This document shows, in pieces, positions 4,385 to 13,893 of a stretch of 21,271 nt of DNA; position 1 is the stretch's first letter, and each line of letters opens with the position of its first letter. The stretch is from positions 1 to 21,271 of the IMG/VR virus record IMGVR_UViG_3300034101_003487. One strand, given 5' to 3'. The notes under the pieces were generated by a model. The model was not told the origin of the DNA and ran no database searches. It saw nothing but the letters and a program-made list of their open reading frames with translations. The translations under genes and the position numbers were made by a program. This stretch comes from a virus.

Positions 4385-4642
4385 TCATGCCGCCGCTTTT
4401 TCGTCGCAACTACAGCGCAAAACTGACCATTCCACATCGGGGCGCAGGTCTTCGCACCTCACCTGGCCGGCGGTGGCGCGTTCCAGGGCGGGGCAGTATT
4501 CAGCGGGGGGCGTGAGGTCCGGATTCGGGCTGTTCAGCCAGTTAAAAACGTGCGCCTGCTTGATGCCGCGCCCGACCGCCTTCGCGGTGGCTGTTTGCCC
4601 ACCGATCAGGTGAACAGCTTTTTTGAGGGGTTCGAGTGCCAT
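4385..4642 (-). CDS. Cro/YdaS-like repressor
   Basis: Protein of 85 residues resembling the YdaS/Cro group of small phage regulators. It begins M-A-L-E-P-L-K-K-A-V and has a helix-turn-helix at about residues 13-36 (G-G-Q-T-A-T-A-K-A-V-G, then Q-A-H-V-F-N-W-L). The C-terminal part contains T-P-P-A-E-Y-C-P-A-L-E-R-A-T, typical of the group. It is divergent from the cI-like gene, with three operators between them, so it should repress the repressor promoter and commit the phage to lysis. The ATG at 4642 falls at or within two bases of the start predicted for pR, and no other usable start codon exists downstream, so the message should be leaderless. Confidence 0.85.
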   Translation of the reverse strand: MALEPLKKAVHLIGGQTATAKAVGRGIKQAHVFNWLNSPNPDLTPPAEYCPALERATAGQVRCEDLRPDVEWSVLRCSCDEKAAA

Positions 4643-4648
4643 GCGTCA

Positions 4649-4678
4649 AGAATATAAGCATGATTGTATTTTTGTCAA
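4649..4678 (-). promoter_or_regulatory. Early rightward promoter pR
   Basis: On the minus strand there is a perfect -35 TTGACA (4678-4673). The -10 is either TATATT (4656-4651, 16-bp spacer) or TATTCT (4654-4649, 18-bp spacer). The predicted start is 4644-4642, at the cro-like ATG. The sequence from -35 to -10 is nearly the same as that of pL (6152-6181), and operator OR1 lies between the two hexamers. Confidence 0.85.
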
Positions 4679-4715
4679 TAAGCCGGCTTGTTTGAATATT
4701 CACAACCTGACTTGT
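4654..4715. promoter_or_regulatory. Tripartite operator OR1-OR3
   Basis: Three 14-bp semi-palindromic sites begin exactly 24 bp apart: ATAAGCATGATTGT (4654-4667), ATAAGCCGGCTTGT (4678-4691) and ACAACCTGACTTGT (4702-4715). The first two agree at 10 of 14 positions. The third is more divergent. They cover pR and pRM and recur at pL, as expected for CI/Cro binding sites. Which protein binds which site cannot be read from the sequence. Confidence 0.85.
4672..4700 (+). promoter_or_regulatory. Repressor maintenance promoter pRM (candidate)
   Basis: On the plus strand there is TTGTCA (4672-4677, five of six), a 17-bp spacer and AATATT (4695-4700, four of six). Its -35 overlaps that of pR on the other strand. 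OR2 lies in its spacer, and OR3 covers the predicted start near 4707. The repressor ATG at 4728 has no Shine-Dalgarno sequence. Confidence 0.5.
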
Positions 4716-4727
4716 AACCTGACTCTT

Positions 4728-5099
4728 ATGAGATATGGAGAACGATTACGCGCTGCTCGGCTACATGCTGGGCTTACCCAAGCCGAACTTGCTGTTGGCA
4801 TTGGCGGGGTGTGTACGCAAGCAAATATTTCAGGCCTGGAAAAATCGTTATCTGCCAATGGCTCTGAGTTTACAGTCCAGTTTGCCAACGCATGCCAGGT
4901 AAACGCGTTATGGCTGGCTACTGGTGAGGGAGTGATGTTTGATAACCATGTTAGCGAGCCTGTAAAACAGGTAACTCGTCGCATGCAGACACTTTCGGAG
5001 CGTGAGCAATACCGGGTTGCCAAGATGATCGAGTTCTATCTCGAACCTGCCGAAAACGATCTTGATGCCACGCCAGAAGGCCTGCGCGGCAGCCAATGA
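4728..5099 (+). CDS. CI-like repressor without a peptidase domain
   Basis: XRE-family DNA-binding protein of 123 residues. The helix-turn-helix covers about residues 5-60 (E-R-L-R-A-A-R, G-L-T-Q-A-E-L-A, then S-G-L-E-K), followed by L-W-L-A-T-G-E-G, common in phage repressors. A short helical C-terminus (S-E-R-E-Q-Y-R-V-A-K-M-I) may dimerise. Position and divergent orientation to the cro-like gene make it the immunity repressor. Lambda CI has a C-terminal S24/LexA-type peptidase domain of about 100 residues. It is absent here, so RecA-stimulated self-cleavage is not expected and induction must work differently. The start at 4728 is the first Met before the HTH. Upstream codons would run through the operators. 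Confidence 0.88.
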   Translation: MRYGERLRAARLHAGLTQAELAVGIGGVCTQANISGLEKSLSANGSEFTVQFANACQVNALWLATGEGVMFDNHVSEPVKQVTRRMQTLSEREQYRVAKMIEFYLEPAENDLDATPEGLRGSQ

Positions 5100-5150: not shown

Positions 5151-5612
5151 ATGGAAGTAATGTGGATCATCATCCTTGCTTTCATCGGCTGGGCAATTTA
5201 TGAGCTACTGACCAGCAAGTCGGATATTGGCCCGATCAAGGCCTATGCCTCGCGTGAAGATGCCTTTAATGAACCCCATCCGTTCAGCAGCGGGCAAGTA
5301 TTCAACCAAGAGATTGTTGGAGAATCCCATTACCAGGAAGCGTTGAGCGGCATCGTTCAGAATATCCCCGCCGGCTACGAATATGTTCAGGCGCAGTTGG
5401 AGATGGAAAACAACAACCCGCATGATCGCAATGCGGTTGCAGTCAAAATCGCAGGTCATCTAATTGGCTACTTGCCACGCGAAGCCGCCAAGGAATACCG
5501 CAGCCTTGCCAAGGAAGAAGGACTACCTGCCATCACTACCTGCCCGGCGGTCATCAAAGGAGGTGGGGATCGGTCGTATGGTGTTTGGCTTGGCCTACCG
5601 GAGCTGGTCTGA
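5151..5612 (+). CDS. Membrane-anchored HIRAN-domain protein
   Basis: Protein of 153 residues. Residues 4-19 (M-W-I-I-I-L-A-F-I-G-W-A-I-Y) form one N-terminal membrane segment. Residues about 50-150 match the HIRAN domain, with I-V-G-E-S-H-Y near its start, the signature N-P-H-D-R-N-A-V-A-V in the middle, and I-G-Y-L-P-R-E-A-A. HIRAN domains bind DNA ends or single-stranded DNA in repair helicases; stand-alone bacterial versions are poorly characterised. AGAGGGA precedes the ATG. The gene lies 51 bases after the repressor and before pL, the position of rexAB in lambda, so it is probably expressed in the lysogen. A superinfection-exclusion or DNA-entry role at the inner membrane is inference. 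Confidence 0.8.
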   Translation: MEVMWIIILAFIGWAIYELLTSKSDIGPIKAYASREDAFNEPHPFSSGQVFNQEIVGESHYQEALSGIVQNIPAGYEYVQAQLEMENNNPHDRNAVAVKIAGHLIGYLPREAAKEYRSLAKEEGLPAITTCPAVIKGGGDRSYGVWLGLPELV

Positions 5613-5655: not shown

Positions 5656-5874
5656 ATGAAAGACATCAACAAAACCCACAAAAATCTGTTCCTGGCTGAT
5701 CCAGCCAAGGCGGTATCGAACATAGACACCGCCTTGAAGTTCCTTTTTGCCGATACCGTGCATGGCATGAACGACAAGGTCGCGGGCGATTACACCTACG
5801 AGGAACTGGTGGATGCGTTGCTCTCCGCCCGTCGCGCCTTGTACTCCGACCACGGCGAAGAGGGCGACCAGTAA
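5656..5874 (+). CDS. Small hypothetical protein of the immunity operon
   Basis: Protein of 72 residues that I do not recognise. It begins M-K-D-I-N-K-T-H-K-N-L-F and appears mainly helical, with an acidic C-terminus (D-H-G-E-E-G-D-Q). AGGA lies six bases before the ATG at 5656. Longer versions starting upstream would overlap the HIRAN gene and are unlikely. It follows the HIRAN gene by 43 bases on the same strand, so the repressor, the HIRAN protein and this protein probably form one lysogenic operon. Its last 79 bases overlap a convergent gene on the minus strand. Confidence 0.65.
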   Translation: MKDINKTHKNLFLADPAKAVSNIDTALKFLFADTVHGMNDKVAGDYTYEELVDALLSARRALYSDHGEEGDQ

Positions 5875-6138: not shown

Positions 6139-6176
6139 ATAAGCATGCTTGTTGACACAAATACAATCGTGCTTAT
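6139..6176. promoter_or_regulatory. Operators OL1 and OL2
   Basis: Two copies of the repressor-site motif: ATAAGCATGCTTGT (6139-6152), and in the opposite orientation ACAATCGTGCTTAT (6163-6176). They start 24 bp apart, the same spacing as at OR. Relative to the promoter they sit exactly as OR2 and OR1 sit on pR. One overlaps the first base of the -35 and the other fills the spacer. Confidence 0.88.
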
Positions 6177-6181
6177 ATATT
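6152..6181 (+). promoter_or_regulatory. Early leftward promoter pL
   Basis: Perfect -35 TTGACA (6152-6157) with -10 TATATA (6174-6179, 16-bp spacer) or TATATT (6176-6181, 18-bp spacer). It is nearly identical to pR and drives the plus-strand operon that ends in int. The predicted start is 6186-6188. Confidence 0.88.
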
Positions 6182-6906: not shown

Positions 6907-7013
6907 TCCGGTTTCCATTTGTCTATGTCGCCTGCATGACTGCCCTGGGTTTGTTCATCGGCTGTGTTGGTTGGGCGTTCTGGGCGCTGTTTACCGCGCT
7001 GCTGGCAGCATGA
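6894..7013 (+). CDS. 39-residue membrane peptide
   Basis: A very short open frame encoding M-R-R-M-I-R, then a long hydrophobic stretch (about residues 6-38, including V-A-C-M-T-A-L-G-L-F-I-G and W-A-F-W-A-L-F). It therefore has one, or at most two, membrane segments with a basic cytoplasmic N-terminus. CCAAGAGG lies just before the ATG. Its TGA overlaps the ATG of the next gene by ATGA. This linkage and the composition support it as a real small gene. Its function is unknown. Confidence 0.55.
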   Translation: MRRMIRFPFVYVACMTALGLFIGCVGWAFWALFTALLAA

Positions 7014-8038
7014 GCCGCTACGCCGACCTTACACCCACCGCGCACGCCGTGCTGGCGTTGATCCGGCCGATCAGCAGCATGCGGCCGATCAGCCAAGGCG
7101 ACATCGGCGCCATGGCCCGCACCATCGCGCTGCCAGACGAAATCCATGACGCGCTCGAACAGCTCATCGATGCGCGCTTGATTACCAGCATGCGCCACAC
7201 CGTCGGCGACGTAACGCAAAACGTCTACTGGCCCACTGCCCTGAAACCCATCACAGCACCATCCATAGAGGAAATCCGCATGGCATCCGAATCGAAAAAC
7301 TCCCAACTTGCCGCCCTGATCGTCAAGCACGGCCCCCTATCCGGCAGCGATCTGGCCGCCAAGGCGCAAGAGCGGGGCATGAACTGTCCCACCAAGAACG
7401 TCCAAGGCATCCTTGGCGGGCATTTGACGCGCGGCGAGATCATCATGAAAAAACGCGACGGCGCGAACTGGTACATGACGCCGAATCAAGCGGCGGAATG
7501 GAATGGCAAGCCCGAGGGCCCCGCGGCGGACATCGACCCCACTACCGAGGCGGGGGCGCACGTCATGAGCGCACCGGCGGCGAGCGCGAAACAATCCGGG
7601 GATGAAAACCCGGTAAGCGAAACCGCGCCCCATGATGACAAGACGGCGATTATCCGCGCCCTGCAAGTAGACCTGGCACACCGCGACCGCATCATCCATG
7701 ACCTGAGAAACGATGTCTGCGCCGCAAACCTGATCTTTTCCCAGCTCGCAGAAACCCTCAAGGTCGAGCGGCCTGAGCAAATCCCCGACGCACTTGATGA
7801 GCTGACGCACGCGCTCGCCACCCGCGCCATGGTAGCCGCGCCGGAACCTGGCCGCCTGGCATTGCTGCTGATTGACAGCGCCGACCTTACCGAGATCGAA
7901 GTACTTGATCAGTACGACGCGCACAATGCCCAGCAGCTCGCAATAAGCAATATCGAGCAGGGTCACGCGGCGCGCGCGGTGGTGGTCCGCATCATCGGCG
8001 AGGCCAAGCGCCGGGTTGAGTGGAAGGAGGCCGCATGA
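7010..8038 (+). CDS. Putative DNA-binding protein with two winged-helix-like segments
   Basis: Protein of 342 residues, not recognised as a named family. Residues about 5-78 look like a winged helix (P-T-A-H-A-V-L-A-L-I, then A-L-E-Q-L-I-D-A-R-L-I). Residues about 95-150 look like a second one (Q-L-A-A-L-I-V-K-H-G-P-L-S-G-S-D-L-A-A-K, ending N-W-Y-M-T). A Pro/Ala-rich linker (about 160-205) follows, then a helical, probably coiled-coil segment (I-I-R-A-L-Q-V-D-L to about 265) and a C-terminal αβ part. The ATG at 7010 overlaps the previous stop. AAGGAGG near its 3' end serves the next gene, the H-NS/ParB fusion, which it probably assists or regulates. That last point is inference from coupling. 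Confidence 0.7.
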   Translation: MSRYADLTPTAHAVLALIRPISSMRPISQGDIGAMARTIALPDEIHDALEQLIDARLITSMRHTVGDVTQNVYWPTALKPITAPSIEEIRMASESKNSQLAALIVKHGPLSGSDLAAKAQERGMNCPTKNVQGILGGHLTRGEIIMKKRDGANWYMTPNQAAEWNGKPEGPAADIDPTTEAGAHVMSAPAASAKQSGDENPVSETAPHDDKTAIIRALQVDLAHRDRIIHDLRNDVCAANLIFSQLAETLKVERPEQIPDALDELTHALATRAMVAAPEPGRLALLLIDSADLTEIEVLDQYDAHNAQQLAISNIEQGHAARAVVVRIIGEAKRRVEWKEAA

Positions 8039-9978
8039 CTGCCCGCGACAAACTGCCCGCTATGCACGCCGTGCAGTACCGCCACCCGACTCTAGGCATG
8101 ACCTGGAGCGGTCGCGGCAGAAAGCCGCGCTGGGTGGAACTCTGGCTGGAAGACGGCAACAGCCTGGATGAGCTGCGGCTGGCACAAGCGCCGGAAGCGC
8201 CCACGCCAGAGCCCACGCCAGAACCCGCCCGACTGGATGCCCAGCATGTTCCCGCGCAAAACCTCGCGCCCAGCCCCACCAACCCGCGCAAGACATTCCC
8301 GCCCGACAAGATTGCCGAAATGGCCGAAAGCATCCGCCGGCACGGCATTTTGCAACCGATCCTGGTGCGGCCCTGGAACGGCCTGGCGCACCCCTGGCCA
8401 CATGAGCAAATCATTGACCTTGACCACCCGCGCTTCGAAATCATTGCCGGTGAACGCCGCTGGCGGGCTGCGCAGGTGGCGGAATTGGCCCTGGTGCCGG
8501 TGCTGATTCGCCACCTGAGCGACCAAGAAACGGTCGAGTTCCAGATTATTGAAAATCTCCACCGTGAAGACCTGCACCCGCTCGAAGAGGCCGAGGGTTA
8601 CGAACTGCTGATGCAGCGCCACGCCTACAGCGCCGAAGAACTCGCCGACAAGATCGGCAAATCCAAGGCTTACGTTTACGCCCGCCTCAAGCTCACCGCG
8701 CTGGTACCGGCAGCGCGCGAGGCCTTCCGCGCCGGCAAGCTCGGCGCCAGCACCGCGCTGTTGGTGGCACGCATCCCCGGCGCCGCGCTGCAGGAAAAGT
8801 ATCTGGCCGACATCACCAGCGGCTGGCAAGGCCCGATGTCGTACCGCATGGCCGCCGAGCGCGCCCAGAATCACTACATGCTGCGCCTGGCCGCCGCGCC
8901 GTTTGACGTCAACGCGCTTGATCTGGCCGACGCCGGGCCTTGCGGCACCTGCCCCAAACGCAGCGGCAACCAGCCGGAGCTGTTCGCCGACGTGGCGAGT
9001 GCAGACGTTTGCACAGACCCGGATTGTTTCGGCGCCAAGCGCGCGGCCTGGGTAGATCGCCAGCGCGCGGAAGCTGAAGCCAACGGCAAGACCATCATCA
9101 CCGGGCCCGCCGCCGAAAAGATCATCCCGAGCTACTACGCACTCGGCGAGACCGACAGCGCCAGCGGTTATGTCGCCCTCGACATGCCCTGCGAAGCGGC
9201 CAAACATCTGGCCAAGGTGTTGGATGATCCTGAACCGCAACCGCCAGATGAACCCGATGAGGATGCCGACGCCGCAACCATCGAGGCCTATCAAGCGGCT
9301 GATGACAAGTACGATGCCGATCTGGAAGCGTGGGAAGAACGCCAGACCGCCGCGCTGCCCACCTATCGCAACCTGCTCGCCGGCGCCGGCGGCGCGATTC
9401 CCACCGTCCTGGTGCAACATGCCCGCAGCGGAACCCTGGTCGAGTGTGTCGCGCAATCCGATCTGGCCCCCGTGTTGCGGCAACAAGGCATTGAGCCGCC
9501 GCCGCCACCGCCTACACGGGGCAGCAGCAACCCGGACCGCGAGCGGGAGAAAGTCGCCCGCCAGGAAACCGCCTACCGCCAGCGTTTGGCGGCGTGCATT
9601 GTGTTCAGCGCCGGCACGATGCCGTTTGATATGAGCGAATTGCAAATCCTGGCGCACACCCTGTACCAGTTGCGGGATTTCGAAACGCAGAAACTGATCG
9701 TCAAGATGCTGCGCGGCGGTACCGAAAAGATCGAGCGCGCCGACACCTACAAACTCGCCGCCGACATCATGGAAATGGACAAAGGCGAGCTGTACGGATT
9801 CCTGCGCCTGGCCACACTCGCCGGACATATCCACGTCGCCAGCTACAGCAACGACCCCACCAGCACCCCGACCGCAATGGCGACCCTGGCCGACAGATGG
9901 GGCGTTGACCCGGAAGCGGTGCGCAAACAGGTGGCGGACGACGCCGCCGCAAAGAAACCCGGCAAAGCAAAGGACTGA
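8035..9978 (+). CDS. ParB-family protein with N-terminal H-NS-type DNA-binding motif
   Basis: Protein of 647 residues. Residues about 13-50 match the H-NS C-terminal DNA-binding domain: Y-R-H-P at the start, T-W-S-G-R-G-R-K-P as the minor-groove hook, and G-N-S-L-D-E-L at the end. Residues about 76-180 form a ParB N-terminal domain, with T-N-P-R-K-T-F, the CTP-binding G-E-R-R-W-R-A (139-145) and I-E-N-L-H-R-E-D-L-H-P-L. A KorB/ParB helix-turn-helix follows at about 198-222. A four-Cys cluster (C303, C306, C326, C331) could bind zinc. Acidic linkers lead to a long C-terminus. ParB proteins are CTP-dependent DNA clamps. There is no parA or recognised parS nearby, so plasmid-style partition is not supported. 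Start 8035 has AAGGAGG and an ATGA overlap. Confidence 0.85.
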   Translation: MTARDKLPAMHAVQYRHPTLGMTWSGRGRKPRWVELWLEDGNSLDELRLAQAPEAPTPEPTPEPARLDAQHVPAQNLAPSPTNPRKTFPPDKIAEMAESIRRHGILQPILVRPWNGLAHPWPHEQIIDLDHPRFEIIAGERRWRAAQVAELALVPVLIRHLSDQETVEFQIIENLHREDLHPLEEAEGYELLMQRHAYSAEELADKIGKSKAYVYARLKLTALVPAAREAFRAGKLGASTALLVARIPGAALQEKYLADITSGWQGPMSYRMAAERAQNHYMLRLAAAPFDVNALDLADAGPCGTCPKRSGNQPELFADVASADVCTDPDCFGAKRAAWVDRQRAEAEANGKTIITGPAAEKIIPSYYALGETDSASGYVALDMPCEAAKHLAKVLDDPEPQPPDEPDEDADAATIEAYQAADDKYDADLEAWEERQTAALPTYRNLLAGAGGAIPTVLVQHARSGTLVECVAQSDLAPVLRQQGIEPPPPPPTRGSSNPDREREKVARQETAYRQRLAACIVFSAGTMPFDMSELQILAHTLYQLRDFETQKLIVKMLRGGTEKIERADTYKLAADIMEMDKGELYGFLRLATLAGHIHVASYSNDPTSTPTAMATLADRWGVDPEAVRKQVADDAAAKKPGKAKD

Positions 9979-9980
9979 GC

Positions 9981-10535
9981 ATGCCTATCGAGATCGAGCA
10001 ACACGCCACGCTGGAACACATCAACATCCGCAAGGAAGGGCCGGACGATGAGAAACATCTGATGGTCGACCTCAAGCTGCAACTGATCGCCAGCTCGGAC
10101 ATCCTGCTTGAGTTTGACCCCACGCTGCGCCGCATGCTGTTTACCCCGGAGGGCGGCAAACGCTATCCCAAGATGGCGCCGATCAAATGGGCGGGCGAAA
10201 TGCGCCACATGGAACTGGAAATTGCCGGCGTCGAGTTCATGGACGTGACGCTGCGCAAGTTCCAGTTTGACCCCATGACCTTGCGCGGCCATGAGTTTGT
10301 CGACCTGATTTTTCTCGCCACCTTCGCCCCGGCCGGGCGCGAGACCGCCATCATCGCGGAACAGGTCGGCGAGGAAACCATGATCAAGATCAAAGCCGCG
10401 CCGCAACTTGATCTGGGCGAAAAGTCCGTAGCCGAGGCCGTGGCGGATTTGCGCGATTTGATGGTCCGGAATAACGCCACCATGACCATCGACGGGCCGG
10501 ATGGCGCAACCTTCAGAGTAGGCGGAGATGCCTAA
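9981..10535 (+). CDS. Hypothetical protein downstream of the ParB fusion
   Basis: Protein of 184 residues that I do not recognise. Its pattern of alternating hydrophobic residues (H-L-M-V-D-L-K-L-Q-L-I, then M-E-L-E-I-A-G-V-E-F-M-D-V-T-L) suggests a mainly β-strand fold, ending with a helix (S-V-A-E-A-V-A-D-L-R-D-L) and a β-hairpin. It begins two bases after the ParB-like stop with AAAGGA at good distance, and its 3' end overlaps the next gene by eight bases. It is probably co-expressed with the ParB-like protein. I see no catalytic motif. Confidence 0.7.
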   Translation: MPIEIEQHATLEHINIRKEGPDDEKHLMVDLKLQLIASSDILLEFDPTLRRMLFTPEGGKRYPKMAPIKWAGEMRHMELEIAGVEFMDVTLRKFQFDPMTLRGHEFVDLIFLATFAPAGRETAIIAEQVGEETMIKIKAAPQLDLGEKSVAEAVADLRDLMVRNNATMTIDGPDGATFRVGGDA

Positions 10536-10992
10536 ATCCGCCAAGCCCCGCAAAAAGCGCCGGCTCATCCCCCTGTACAGCAGCCAGCGCCGGCCAGGCA
10601 TCGACGAAGCGATGGTGGTTTTTCAACCGCTGTTCGCCCTGTTCGAGCAGTTGGAAACCGGCTACCTGGACGACGCCGGCGGGCGGCCAATCATGCGCGA
10701 ATGGGATGGCGGCTACTGCGAGATTGCCCCGGCGCTGCTGGGCTGGGCAGACTGCTGGACGCGCATCGCAGACGCCGAGGGGTTTGCCCTTGACACCGAA
10801 CCGCTCCGCCGTATCAGCCGCAAGCTGGCGCTAGTCAGCCCGCTGACTGAAACGGAAGTCGAAGCCGGCCGGGCTGCGCTGATGGCGACGCATCGCGCGT
10901 TTCTAAAGTTGCCCGTTGGAGTCATCAAAAAACACGCCAACAACGAGGAAATCTCGATCGCGATCGAGAACATGGAAAGGATGGCAGCATGA
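10528..10992 (+). CDS. Hypothetical basic-N-terminus protein
   Basis: Protein of 154 residues, not recognised. The first 12 residues are strongly basic (K-S-A-K-P-R-K-K-R-R), followed by a helical core with many Trp and Leu residues (A-L-L-G-W-A-D-C-W-T-R-I). The basic tail could contact nucleic acid, but no defined domain is visible. It overlaps the gene before by eight bases and the one after by ATGA, so it is part of the same coupled operon. Confidence 0.65.
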   Translation: MPKSAKPRKKRRLIPLYSSQRRPGIDEAMVVFQPLFALFEQLETGYLDDAGGRPIMREWDGGYCEIAPALLGWADCWTRIADAEGFALDTEPLRRISRKLALVSPLTETEVEAGRAALMATHRAFLKLPVGVIKKHANNEEISIAIENMERMAA

Positions 10993-11312
10993 GATACACC
11001 AGCCCGAATGGCGCTTACCACGTCGAGCCATTGCCCAGCATGCCCCAGGTGGCGTGGTGCCACGGCTTCTGGGTTGCCGCAGACCAGCGCGGCAATGGCC
11101 ACGGCCGCGAACTGGAACAGTGCCAGGCTGAAACCCTGAGCGCCGAACTTTACGACTACGCCCTGACAACCACAGCCGCCGACAACCACGCCAAACAAGC
11201 CTGCTTGCGCGGCGCCGGCTGGACCCTGCTGGCCACCTTCGACAATTCCCGTACCGGGCAAGCGCACCAGGTGTGGGGACGAAATAACGGGGGCGCGGAT
11301 GACCGAGCGTGA
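10989..11312 (+). CDS. Miniature GNAT-like protein
   Basis: Protein of 107 residues resembling only the core of a GNAT N-acetyltransferase. The acetyl-CoA pyrophosphate loop R-G-N-G-H-G (residues 34-39) follows a β-strand (F-W-V-A-A). Then come a helix, N66 at the usual A-D-N-H-A-K position, and G-A-G-W at 75-78, matching the end of GNAT motif B. The family is usually 140-180 residues, so the N-terminal strands that help bind the acceptor are shortened. It may be an active small acetyltransferase acting on a protein or small molecule, or a degenerate binding domain. The overlap with both neighbours shows it is a regular operon member. Confidence 0.5.
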   Translation: MRYTSPNGAYHVEPLPSMPQVAWCHGFWVAADQRGNGHGRELEQCQAETLSAELYDYALTTTAADNHAKQACLRGAGWTLLATFDNSRTGQAHQVWGRNNGGADDRA

Positions 11313-11481: not shown

Positions 11482-11699
11482 ACGCAGCCCCGATCAAAGG
11501 CCTGACTCTGCGCCAGGGAGACCGCGAGGTGAACGTCCATGATGTGATAGATGGCGTGGTGTATTACGGCTTCTATCGCCTGAGCAGCGACTGGCCAGCG
11601 GGGCTCTATCGGGTATCGATTCAGGAGTGGGACGCCATGCTTAAGGTTGCGCTGGATGCCGGAGCGGAGATGTATTGCTTGCTGGCGGGTAACGCCTGA
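11478..11699 (+). CDS. Small hypothetical protein
   Basis: Protein of 73 residues, acidic and β-rich (G-L-T-L-R-Q-G-D-R-E-V-N-V, then V-V-Y-Y-G-F-Y-R-L). It ends with a helix around W-D-A-M-L-K-V-A-L. It is not recognised. It starts in the ATGA overlap with the gene before and shares its last base with the excisionase start, so its translation is linked to excisionase. Confidence 0.55.
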   Translation: MNAAPIKGLTLRQGDREVNVHDVIDGVVYYGFYRLSSDWPAGLYRVSIQEWDAMLKVALDAGAEMYCLLAGNA

Positions 11700-11923
11700 T
11701 GCACATCACCCTTGAATCCTGGGCAGAAGACAACTTCCGCCCCGCCCCAAAAATTCACACCTTGCGCGCATGGGCGAAGAGCGGCCGCATCGTGCCGGCG
11801 CCGATCAAAGTCGGACGGCGTTTGATGGTCCAGGAGCATGCGCGATATTGCCCGGCAGAGTCGCCCGCACCTGATGCCGCTGGCTTGTCCGACCGCGCAT
11901 CAAGGATCTTGAACGCGGCTTGA
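11699..11923 (+). CDS. xis: Excisionase (lambda Xis-like)
   Basis: Protein of 74 residues that aligns along its length with lambda Xis. It has a start like M-H-I-T-L-E-S-W, then T-L-R-A-W-A-K-S-G-R-I, P-A-P-I-K-V-G-R and E-H-A. This is a winged-helix DNA-bending protein that binds beside the integrase arm sites and drives excision of the prophage. It lies directly upstream of int with four bases between them, the classical arrangement. It is produced from the pL operon. Confidence 0.88.
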   Translation: MHITLESWAEDNFRPAPKIHTLRAWAKSGRIVPAPIKVGRRLMVQEHARYCPAESPAPDAAGLSDRASRILNAA

Positions 11924-11927
11924 TATC

Positions 11928-13082
11928 ATGGCCGCCATGACACGCCCGCGCAGGGCAGGCAATAAAGACCTGCCAGATAACTTATACCGCCACCACGACG
12001 CCCGCACGGATCGCGTCTACTACCGCTATCGTGACCCCCGCACCGGCAAATTTCACGGCCTCGGCACAGACCACGAACAGGCCGTAAGCGATGCCATCGC
12101 ACTCAATGCCGCCATCTTGGCGGCGATGCATTCCGCACGGCTGCAAGCGATAGCGACGCCCGCCGACACCGCCGAGGGCCCGACGCTGGCCAAGGTCATC
12201 CGGCACCATCAAGAGCTTGCCCAGAAACTGCACGCGCGCGGCAAGCTGGCCGCCAACACGCTCAAGGCCAAGATGAGCAACGGCGCCGCCATCCGGCGCC
12301 ACATCGGCAGCCGACCTATCAACAGCATCGGCGTGCGCGACATCGCCGATCTGCTGGCGACCTACATCGACCAGGGCAAGGAACGCGCCGCCCAAGCGAT
12401 TCGCAGCGAAGCCATCGAGATATGGAAGACAGCCATCGCCGAAGGCTGGACGGAAGACAACCCGGCCGCCAAGACCCGTGCCATCAGCCCGGAAATCAAA
12501 CGCACGCGCCTCACCTTCGACGTCTTCCAGCGGATGCATCAACAGACCCAGCATGTCTGGCTGCGCAATGCCATGGCGCTGGCGCTGCTCACCGGTCAGC
12601 GCCGCGAAGACATCGCACTGGCGCAGTTCTCCGACGTGCATGACGGCGGCTGGTGGGTGATCCAGAAGAAGACCGGCTCGCGCGTTTTCATCCCGCTCGA
12701 TCTGAAACTGGAAGTTTTCGGCCTGACGCTGGGAGAAGTCATCCGCGAATGCCGCGCAACCGGCATTGTGAGCCGGCACGTTATCCACCAGACCCGCCCA
12801 CGCGGCAACAGCCCGGTGGGAAGCCCGATCTGGATCGACACCCTGAGCAAGATGTTTCATGCCGAGGTGCTGGCCACCGGGATTGACTGGGGCGACAAGC
12901 AGCCGCCCACGTTCCACGAAATCCGCAGCCTGGCTGAACGGATGTACACCGAGCAGGGCAACATCAACACCCAGATGCTGCTCGGGCACAAAGACCCGCG
13001 CTCAACCGCGATCTACAAAGACACACGCGGCGCGGAATGGGTGACGGTCAAAGTTCAGCAAAACCCCCGTGCAAGTATTTGA
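11928..13082 (+). CDS. int: Lambda-type tyrosine integrase
   Basis: Protein of 384 residues with all three lambda Int parts. The arm-binding domain spans about residues 5-70 (D-L-P-D-N-L-Y, then Y-R-D-P-R-T-G-K). The core-binding domain spans about 85-185. The catalytic domain has R225 (T-G-Q-R), K247 or K248 (Q-K-K-T-G), H330 and R333 (F-H-E-I-R-S-L), H354 (L-L-G-H-K) and nucleophile Y363. All active-site residues are present. An ATG at 11937 would give exactly the lambda N-terminal length up to the D-L-P motif and may be the true start. It recombines attP with the bacterial site. Its 3' end carries one copy of a 12-bp repeat found again in the attP-like region. Confidence 0.97.
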   Translation: MAAMTRPRRAGNKDLPDNLYRHHDARTDRVYYRYRDPRTGKFHGLGTDHEQAVSDAIALNAAILAAMHSARLQAIATPADTAEGPTLAKVIRHHQELAQKLHARGKLAANTLKAKMSNGAAIRRHIGSRPINSIGVRDIADLLATYIDQGKERAAQAIRSEAIEIWKTAIAEGWTEDNPAAKTRAISPEIKRTRLTFDVFQRMHQQTQHVWLRNAMALALLTGQRREDIALAQFSDVHDGGWWVIQKKTGSRVFIPLDLKLEVFGLTLGEVIRECRATGIVSRHVIHQTRPRGNSPVGSPIWIDTLSKMFHAEVLATGIDWGDKQPPTFHEIRSLAERMYTEQGNINTQMLLGHKDPRSTAIYKDTRGAEWVTVKVQQNPRASI

Positions 13083-13250
13083 TTTATATGATGCTGATTG
13101 TTTAATATTTGGCTCGAAAAACAACCTTTAAAAACATCGTAAAGCATTGATTTACATGAAAAATATAAGAGTTTTATTTGTTTGCATGGGCAATATCCGA
13201 ACCCCCTGAATCCATGCGGTTCAGCAAAACTACAGCAAAATATCAGCAAT
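13053..13250. other. attP: attP-like region with two repeat families
   Basis: An A+T-rich stretch between the ends of int and the lysis genes. GTTCAGCAAAAC occurs exactly at 13053-13064 and 13219-13230, with shorter copies of its CAGCAA core at 13233 and 13244. The last three are in 11-bp phase. TTGATTTAYATGA occurs at 13079-13091 and 13147-13159. A short inverted repeat GCATGG/CCATGC (13184-13189, 13212-13217) marks a possible core. Lambda-type integrases need arm sites and a core here, so these repeats are good candidates. The exact crossover cannot be fixed without the host site. Confidence 0.65.
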
Positions 13251-13272
13251 ACCTCCGGCAGATTCCGGCCGG

Positions 13273-13893
13273 CTAGAACGCAATCCCAACCCGTACCCGC
13301 GCATCAATCCCAGATGCAGACGTCTGCACACCGCCGGCCTGGTTGATATCCAGGCCGACACGGGCGACGACATTAACCAACGGGATGCGCATGTCTCGCT
13401 CGATCCAGATCCCGGATGTGCGATTGATGGGCGACCAGCTCAGGCCGGCGCCCCATCGGTTTGCCGGCGCCGGCATGACGATCGGCTCCACCGGCACATC
13501 GAGGCCGCCGACGATCTGGCCGTCTGGACTGCTGGCGAGGATGCGGCGGGCGCCGTCTGGCTCTTTGATCAGGGATAGATCGACGGTGACCGGCGGGCAG
13601 GGCTGGCCCGGCGCGGGTGAAGGGGCGCGGGGTTGCACAGTGACGGATACAACGCGCTCAAGTTTTGCGCGCGGCGGGAGTTGCTGTTTGGGCGGCGCGG
13701 CTGGATCCGGCTGGCGGGCGAGGATCAGGGAGCCGTCGGCCTGGCGCTGGGCGGGTGCGGGGGTTTCTGGCGCCGGCACCGGGCGGGTGTACCACCAGAC
13801 TGCACCGGCAAAGAGGGCCATGAATAGAAGTGTGGCCACGATCCAGCGGCGCGCTTCGGGGGGCAACCAGGAGCGCGCCCATTGTTTGATCAT
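13273..13893 (-). CDS. Spanin-like lysis protein
   Basis: Protein of 206 residues in the position of Rz, directly after the endolysin. Residues about 17-36 (W-I-V-A-T-L-L-F-M-A-L-F-A-G-A-V-W-W-Y) form a single inner-membrane anchor. Residues about 37-110 are a Pro/Ala-rich linker that could cross the periplasm. The rest looks like β-hairpins (W-G-A-G-L-S-W, then V-V-A-R-V-G-L-D) ending R-V-R-V-G-I-A-F, with a terminal Phe as in outer-membrane β-proteins. No lipobox or embedded Rz1 gene was seen. It may join the inner and outer membranes at lysis as one protein. This function is inferred. Its ATG overlaps the endolysin stop by ATGA. Confidence 0.6.
   Translation of the reverse strand: MIKQWARSWLPPEARRWIVATLLFMALFAGAVWWYTRPVPAPETPAPAQRQADGSLILARQPDPAAPPKQQLPPRAKLERVVSVTVQPRAPSPAPGQPCPPVTVDLSLIKEPDGARRILASSPDGQIVGGLDVPVEPIVMPAPANRWGAGLSWSPINRTSGIWIERDMRIPLVNVVARVGLDINQAGGVQTSASGIDARVRVGIAF

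Follow-up and report, generated by a model that had tools for sequence, protein, structure and literature searches.

Several ParB-type clamps invite comparison with the phage protein described here. Chromosomal ParB (Spo0J) of B. subtilis has a parS site, with a central ACGT, embedded in its own parB gene. KorB of plasmid RK2, a ParB-family clamp, acts at several operators and has a ParA partner, IncC; we know of no H-NS hook or Cys cluster in it. VirB of Shigella is a ParB-type CTP clamp that acts as an H-NS anti-silencer (PMC10770331, PMC10653881). A PNAS survey of ParB-CTPase fusions from 2025 describes orphan ParB folds on mobile elements joined to other domains, and its main text names neither an H-NS fusion nor the phage sites described below (PMC12704722). 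In a search of open-licence papers we find no earlier report of an H-NS-ParB fusion, nor of a parS belonging to the phage family treated below. What the present locus adds is a new fusion partner, the H-NS hook, for a ParB clamp of the orphan kind, together with a dispersed candidate cognate site. Orphan ParBs are common in phages, and a large family of them now has a concrete candidate for its DNA site, one found genome-wide and not as a centromere-like cluster, with parB placed in an early, CI-repressed operon. The repeated gain or loss of an H-NS hook by such clamps gives, after VirB, a second setting in which CTP clamps are tied to xenogeneic silencing.

The window, by which we mean the whole stretch of 21,271 nucleotides that was analysed computationally, is a 21 kb virus fragment (IMG/VR record IMGVR_UViG_3300034101_003487). 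On its + strand an intact open reading frame with an ATG start at 8035 (8035-9978, 647 aa) encodes an orphan phage ParB with an N-terminal H-NS hook. A preliminary description made from the letters alone had called this reading frame a ParB fused to an H-NS-type DNA-binding domain, and both its coordinates and its account of the domains prove right, with three Pfam domains above their cut-offs. The H-NS C-terminal DNA-binding domain (Histone_HNS, PF00816; residues 14-48, 8074-8178), which includes YRHP...TWSGRGRKP, scores 42.7 bits against a cut-off of 25.6. Behind it lie the ParB_N CTPase-fold domain (residues 70-176, 8242-8562; 93.4 bits, cut-off 26.3), with GERR at 139-142 and ENLHR at 173-177, and the ParB helix-turn-helix (HTH_ParB, PF17762; residues 178-261, 8566-8817; 52.8 bits, cut-off 22.6). 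A search of the whole record returns the stretch at 8074-8178 as its single H-NS match (E 5.6e-14), and the closest solved relative of the hook is the H-NS C-terminal domain 2L92 (E 2.3e-5). The AlphaFold2 model of the fusion protein (mean pLDDT 86.3) matches the crystal structures of ParB, Noc and KorB, helix-turn-helix included. The nucleotide motifs GERRWRA (residues 139-145) and ENLHR (173-177) are intact, and across the family the corresponding GERR..A and EN..R are conserved; the choice of nucleotide by ParB-CTPase folds is, according to the PNAS survey, unreadable from sequence (PMC12704722). Codons 35-95 contain no in-frame ATG, GTG or TTG (a CTG stands at codon 67), so hook and clamp are expected as one chain, and a gene fission or internal start that would split the hook from ParB is unlikely. 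The presence of H-NS hook and ParB in a single chain is confirmed as a real fusion.

In its fold and in its W-[ST]-G-x-G-[RK] motif the hook agrees with the C-terminal hooks of H-NS, StpA, Ler and Bv3F, but it differs from them in standing at the N-terminus and in lacking the N-terminal oligomerisation domain, just residues 1-13 lying ahead of it. VirB resembles the phage ParB in having a ParB fold without ParA, a palindromic loading site, a link to H-NS and a sliding clamp, as proposed for the phage protein; it differs in that no H-NS domain is described for it, in acting at plasmid promoters, and in its site and its C-terminal architecture. KorB is like the phage protein in being a ParB-family clamp with dispersed operators, the operator sequence differing from the phage parS. 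The best NCBIfam profile is the PRTRC ParB, TIGR03734 (residues 82-346), which the phage ParB matches at 148.3, below the cut-off of 278.6. Both proteins have a four-Cys cluster, but none of the PRTRC loci examined contains the phage palindrome, and PRTRC partner genes (ThiF or other PRTRC-type) find no match among the neighbouring genes scanned.

In the phage protein this cluster (C303, C306, C326 and C331; 8941-9027, + strand) is probably a zinc ribbon. It follows immediately 3' of the helix-turn-helix as CxxC-x19-CxxxxC and is invariant in 57 of 57 aligned relatives; its presence in PRTRC ParBs as well marks it as an older trait of this ParB branch. The long C-terminus that had been listed as unknown, beside the Cys cluster, is modelled with confidence: residues 345-647 (9067-9975, + strand) form a mostly helical domain (AF2 mean pLDDT 87.8) that has no sequence or fold match, nothing in the PDB scoring better than E 0.25. 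Relatives L006, L008, L015, L021, L024 and L060 share a short tail of the form R-C-x-[KN]-T-x-[DE]-[LMI] behind a C-terminal hook, and this tail is not in the window protein. SH3/KOW-like stretches can be made out by eye in some C-termini of the family.

Relatives of the protein are numerous in IMG/VR when an alignment is used as the query (357, of which the best 80 were retained); a single-protein query against IMG/VR finds none, and megablast of the window against phages gives no match. Named members are gp06c of Acidovorax phage Aval, p35 of Variovorax phage VarioGold, and a protein of a 37-kb circular phage-like Comamonas element. These three and the window have a gene slot in common, running from the CI repressor through small genes to ParB, then through small genes and AlpA/MerR/Xis-type or small genes to the integrase. 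The fusion protein is one of a large family of orphan ParBs found in temperate phages and encoded between the genes for the CI repressor and xis/int.

The hook is found in a minority of this family. PF00816 exceeds its cut-off in 12 of 75 viral, phage and plasmid records, every time inside the parB frame and at its C-terminal end, with no separate H-NS gene among these 12 matches. A scan of IMG/VR with the hook only gives 80 loci, in 23 of which ParB is followed by the hook, the remainder being mostly small H-NS-like proteins; the order hook then ParB occurs in none of the 80. Two additional C-terminal cases appear among contigs retrieved by parS alone. Counted as distinct records, the hook stands at the C-terminus in 28 further members, and the sole N-terminal case found is that of the window (whose nearest relative, L007, has a C-terminus truncated by the contig end). 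On a tree of the ParB core the presence of the hook changes 9 times, at least 7 of these changes being forced by well-supported branches. The hook is thus an accessory, repeatedly gained or lost, and as it is missing from most of the family, how much it matters is uncertain.

The genes around parB are laid out much as in lambda, where pR lies beside cro, and pL beyond cI and the rex region. In the window a CI-type repressor is encoded at 4623-5099 (+ strand; PHROG transcriptional repressor), its true start probably being downstream of 4623. The palindrome ATAAGCATGCTTGT, which has the look of a CI/Cro-type operator, occurs in four copies with 0-2 mismatches at two places: 4654-4691, with a leftward TTGACA/TATATT, and 6139-6176, with a rightward one. 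The former pair belongs to a pR-like promoter (4651-4691, - strand), and the latter lies over a pL-like promoter, TTGACA-18-TATATT (6152-6181, + strand), of the operon that includes parB. Given this lambda-like arrangement, the + strand genes from about 6.3 kb to the end of int at 13,082, parB among them, are most simply read as a CI-repressed, pL-like early operon, and from this we infer early expression of the fusion protein. The gene upstream of parB (6971-8038, + strand) overlaps it by 4 nt and has a winged-helix-like segment, judged by eye, with no family match; an excisionase (11699-11923, + strand; PF07825) and a tyrosine integrase (11928-13082, + strand) stand at the end of the operon. 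The same early operon holds a small GNAT-type acetyltransferase gene (10989-11312), and the place of lambda's rex, between the CI gene and the pL-like promoter, is taken by a HIRAN-domain gene (5151-5612).

Perfect 16-bp palindromes, counted blind over 92 loci of the family, number 78 where 29 are expected. The most repeated of them, GTGCAGACGTCTGCAC, lies in parB itself in ten loci, at the A-D-V-C-T codons of the Cys cluster, and GTGCACACGTGTGCAC recurs in the Acidovorax group. The consensus GTGCANACGTNTGCAC is a candidate for the family's own palindromic parS. Its central ACGT is found also in chromosomal parS, whereas its outer half-sites differ from those of Spo0J, a protein from whose system the phage ParB is further set apart by the lack of ParA and by sites over the whole phage genome. 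The window has two matches to the consensus at up to 3 mismatches, against 0.13 expected: GTGCAGACGTTTGCAC at 8999-9014, in parB at the ADVCT codons, and ATGCAGACGTCTGCAC at 13314-13329, beside int and near the stop codon of a lysis-module ORF (13273-13893). The latter has equivalents near the lysis-cassette end in VarioGold and the Comamonas element. Outside parB, GTGCANACGTNTGCAC occurs at no more than 1 mismatch in 34 sites from 29 loci, where shuffled versions give 0, 1 and 1, and 919 kb of cellular ParB loci have no copy of it, nor have 347 kb of viral loci without a ParB of this phage family.

For the embedded site, the ADVCT protein sequence explains part of the conservation. In 37 of 46 genes its Ala is encoded by GCA, which has a share of 17% among all Ala codons, and in 27 of 46 the codon before it is AGT, which has a share of 6.4% among Ser codons; this strong bias points to a constraint on the DNA beyond the protein alone. 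Whole records contain sites in 39 cases out of 42, with a total of 145 sites vs 4 for the reversed pattern. The sites were first found in genomes chosen for their family ParB. A scan of IMG/VR with the exact 16-mer alone finds at least 120 stretches vs 3 for a reversed palindrome of the same composition; a family ParB is encoded in 35 of the 40 new contigs (at least 27 kb each) retrieved in this way. In one clade the recognition helix is different (SQT; SQTRTYVAQRLKL in place of GKSRAYIYARLKL), and there the site occurs in 0 of 10 loci, as compared to 61 of the 82 others; because this clade is one lineage, its lack of the site counts as one event, not ten. No replacement palindrome was found in it (SQT-type loci are L023, L025, L030-L034, L037 and L050-L052). 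Together, these genomic associations make GTGCANACGTNTGCAC the putative target of the ParB helix-turn-helix. A perfect 18-bp palindrome of the window, TCTCGATCGCGATCGAGA (10952-10969, near the 3' end of the gene at 10528-10992), was dropped as a parS because it is not common to relatives.

Within the phage genomes the sites are scattered, not clustered. VarioGold has them at 5756, 15561, 21002, 31899 and 37753, with a weak site at 29452 in parB; Aval at 5488, 7662, 13369, 20625 and 38568; the Comamonas element at 681, 13713, 20781, 29274, 31347 and 35200. In 11 further records the median spacing is about 8.3 kb. Many sites lie within coding genes, and some in short gaps beside genes (for example 3' of the capsid gene, in both VarioGold and Aval, and in VarioGold also upstream of the Q region); neither of the two in the window overlaps pL or pR. 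Given such scattering of the family's recognition site, it is probably the phage genome itself that the clamp coats, in place of sorting chromosomes. The preliminary description had suggested that ParB could load on A+T-rich DNA such as attP and the immunity region. The islands are where it placed them, the two most A+T-rich of the window being beside int (13001-13275, minimum 31% G+C, the probable attP) and in the CI/cro region (about 4,601-4,750). The loading is a different matter: it would be at a specific palindrome, and since parS sites differ little in local G+C from the rest of their locus (the phage DNA has about 61% G+C), loading by A+T content is rejected. Most relatives without a hook keep their parS sites, so the hook is not required for targeting.

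Partition by way of ParA finds little room in this family. ParA (PF13614) is present in 0 of 41 records (that of the window and 40 relatives), with 14 of 14 control genomes positive, and the ParA-binding motif [LFI]G[KR]G[LFI], as defined in the PNAS survey (PMC12704722), in 0 of 85 proteins. Both the lack of a ParA and a use of ParB other than partition, as first suggested from the window's letters, are thus upheld, the two absences making partition unlikely. An ordinary partition ParB that borrows the ParA of its host would agree with the intact ParB_N and helix-turn-helix, but it is extremely improbable in light of the 41 records without ParA and the 85 proteins without the binding motif, of a phage site that differs from chromosomal parS and is missing from the 919 kb of cellular ParB loci, and of an integrase and an early operon as the setting of parB. 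It is also very improbable that the palindromes belong to some other conserved regulator. They were found in genomes chosen for the family ParB, which would allow this, but 35 of 40 contigs reached by the reverse search, with the site alone, encode that ParB, the clade whose ParB recognition helix is altered lacks the site, and regulators such as CI differ among these phages, the CI cluster being common to 25 of 92 loci.

It would appear instead, with a probability of about 0.65, that the protein is an early clamp that loads at dispersed parS sites and coats the phage genome, the H-NS hook being an accessory grip. The fusion protein would be produced early from the CI-repressed, pL-like operon, and its helix-turn-helix would recognise GTGCANACGTNTGCAC, with one copy in parB and others about every 8 kb in the genomes of relatives. 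From homology to ParB, Noc, KorB and VirB we infer a nucleotide-dependent clamp, presumably using CTP, that would load at parS, slide off and cover much of the phage DNA. Partition complexes typically span 10-20 kb (PMC10770331), and with loading sites about every 8 kb such spreading makes coverage of a 40-kb phage genome possible. The hook, which can be attached to one chain end or the other, may provide an extra minor-groove grip on A+T-rich stretches. Since ParA is absent, what results would be a nucleoprotein state of the phage genome and not partition, most likely a genome kept transcribable against host silencing, as with VirB, or one organised or regulated at a distance, as with KorB.

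Displacement of host H-NS, raised in the preliminary description, is possible by analogy, VirB being the precedent. With CTP, the ParA-less ParB relative VirB loads at virS and slides, acting against H-NS (PMC10770331); clamps loaded at the phage parS might likewise slide and remove or exclude H-NS-type silencers of the host, while the hook competes for the same A+T tracts. That the hook is itself of H-NS type, that a spacing of about 8 kb suits ParB spreading over 10-20 kb (PMC10770331), and that parB is in an early operon all speak for such a viral counter-silencer, which we nonetheless would not bet on, for phage DNA with about 61% G+C is not generally A+T-rich and the hook is missing in most relatives. 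Rather doubtful is a long-range regulator in the manner of KorB, in which clamps from dispersed operators would repress or time early and late promoters, with self-regulation through the site in parB. The AF2 model matches KorB, one site does lie inside parB, and others occupy short gaps beside genes in VarioGold and Aval; however, many sites are in coding genes, and those of the window overlap neither pL nor pR. Compaction or protection of replicating phage DNA, a phage chromatin in which the hook would bridge DNA like the C-terminal domain of chromosomal ParB, is unlikely: the genome-wide dispersal of sites is in its favor, and grip modules that can be exchanged are suggested by the SH3/KOW-like stretches made out by eye in some C-termini, but the sites show no link with packaging or nuclease attack. 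Extended to temperate phages at large, the early coating clamp that we prefer would become a ParA-free ParB/parS system with sites genome-wide, whose early clamp builds a viral nucleoid and which in some phages has captured the hook of a host silencer, at either chain end, to become a viral counter-silencer; we offer this extension tentatively, at a little short of even odds.

Two other features recur among these phages. In 26 of 92 relative loci parB has a diversity-generating retroelement as its neighbour, with a reverse transcriptase (PF00078), bAvd and at least one Lcl_C-like variable protein per locus; none was seen in the window. Examples are L021 (4556-5977), L068 (3666-4157) and L011 (4125-4499), and the element sometimes overlaps the start of parB. 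The same hook is also found at the end of a phage protein of about 297 aa that has no ParB (L169, 3251-4141; also L170, L175, L178 and L187), which in L169 shows a match to ribosome modulation factor (PF04957) upstream of the hook. An H-NS hook also lies in the interior of an L223 reading frame that is at least 2645 aa long, so that several kinds of phage protein have this hook attached.
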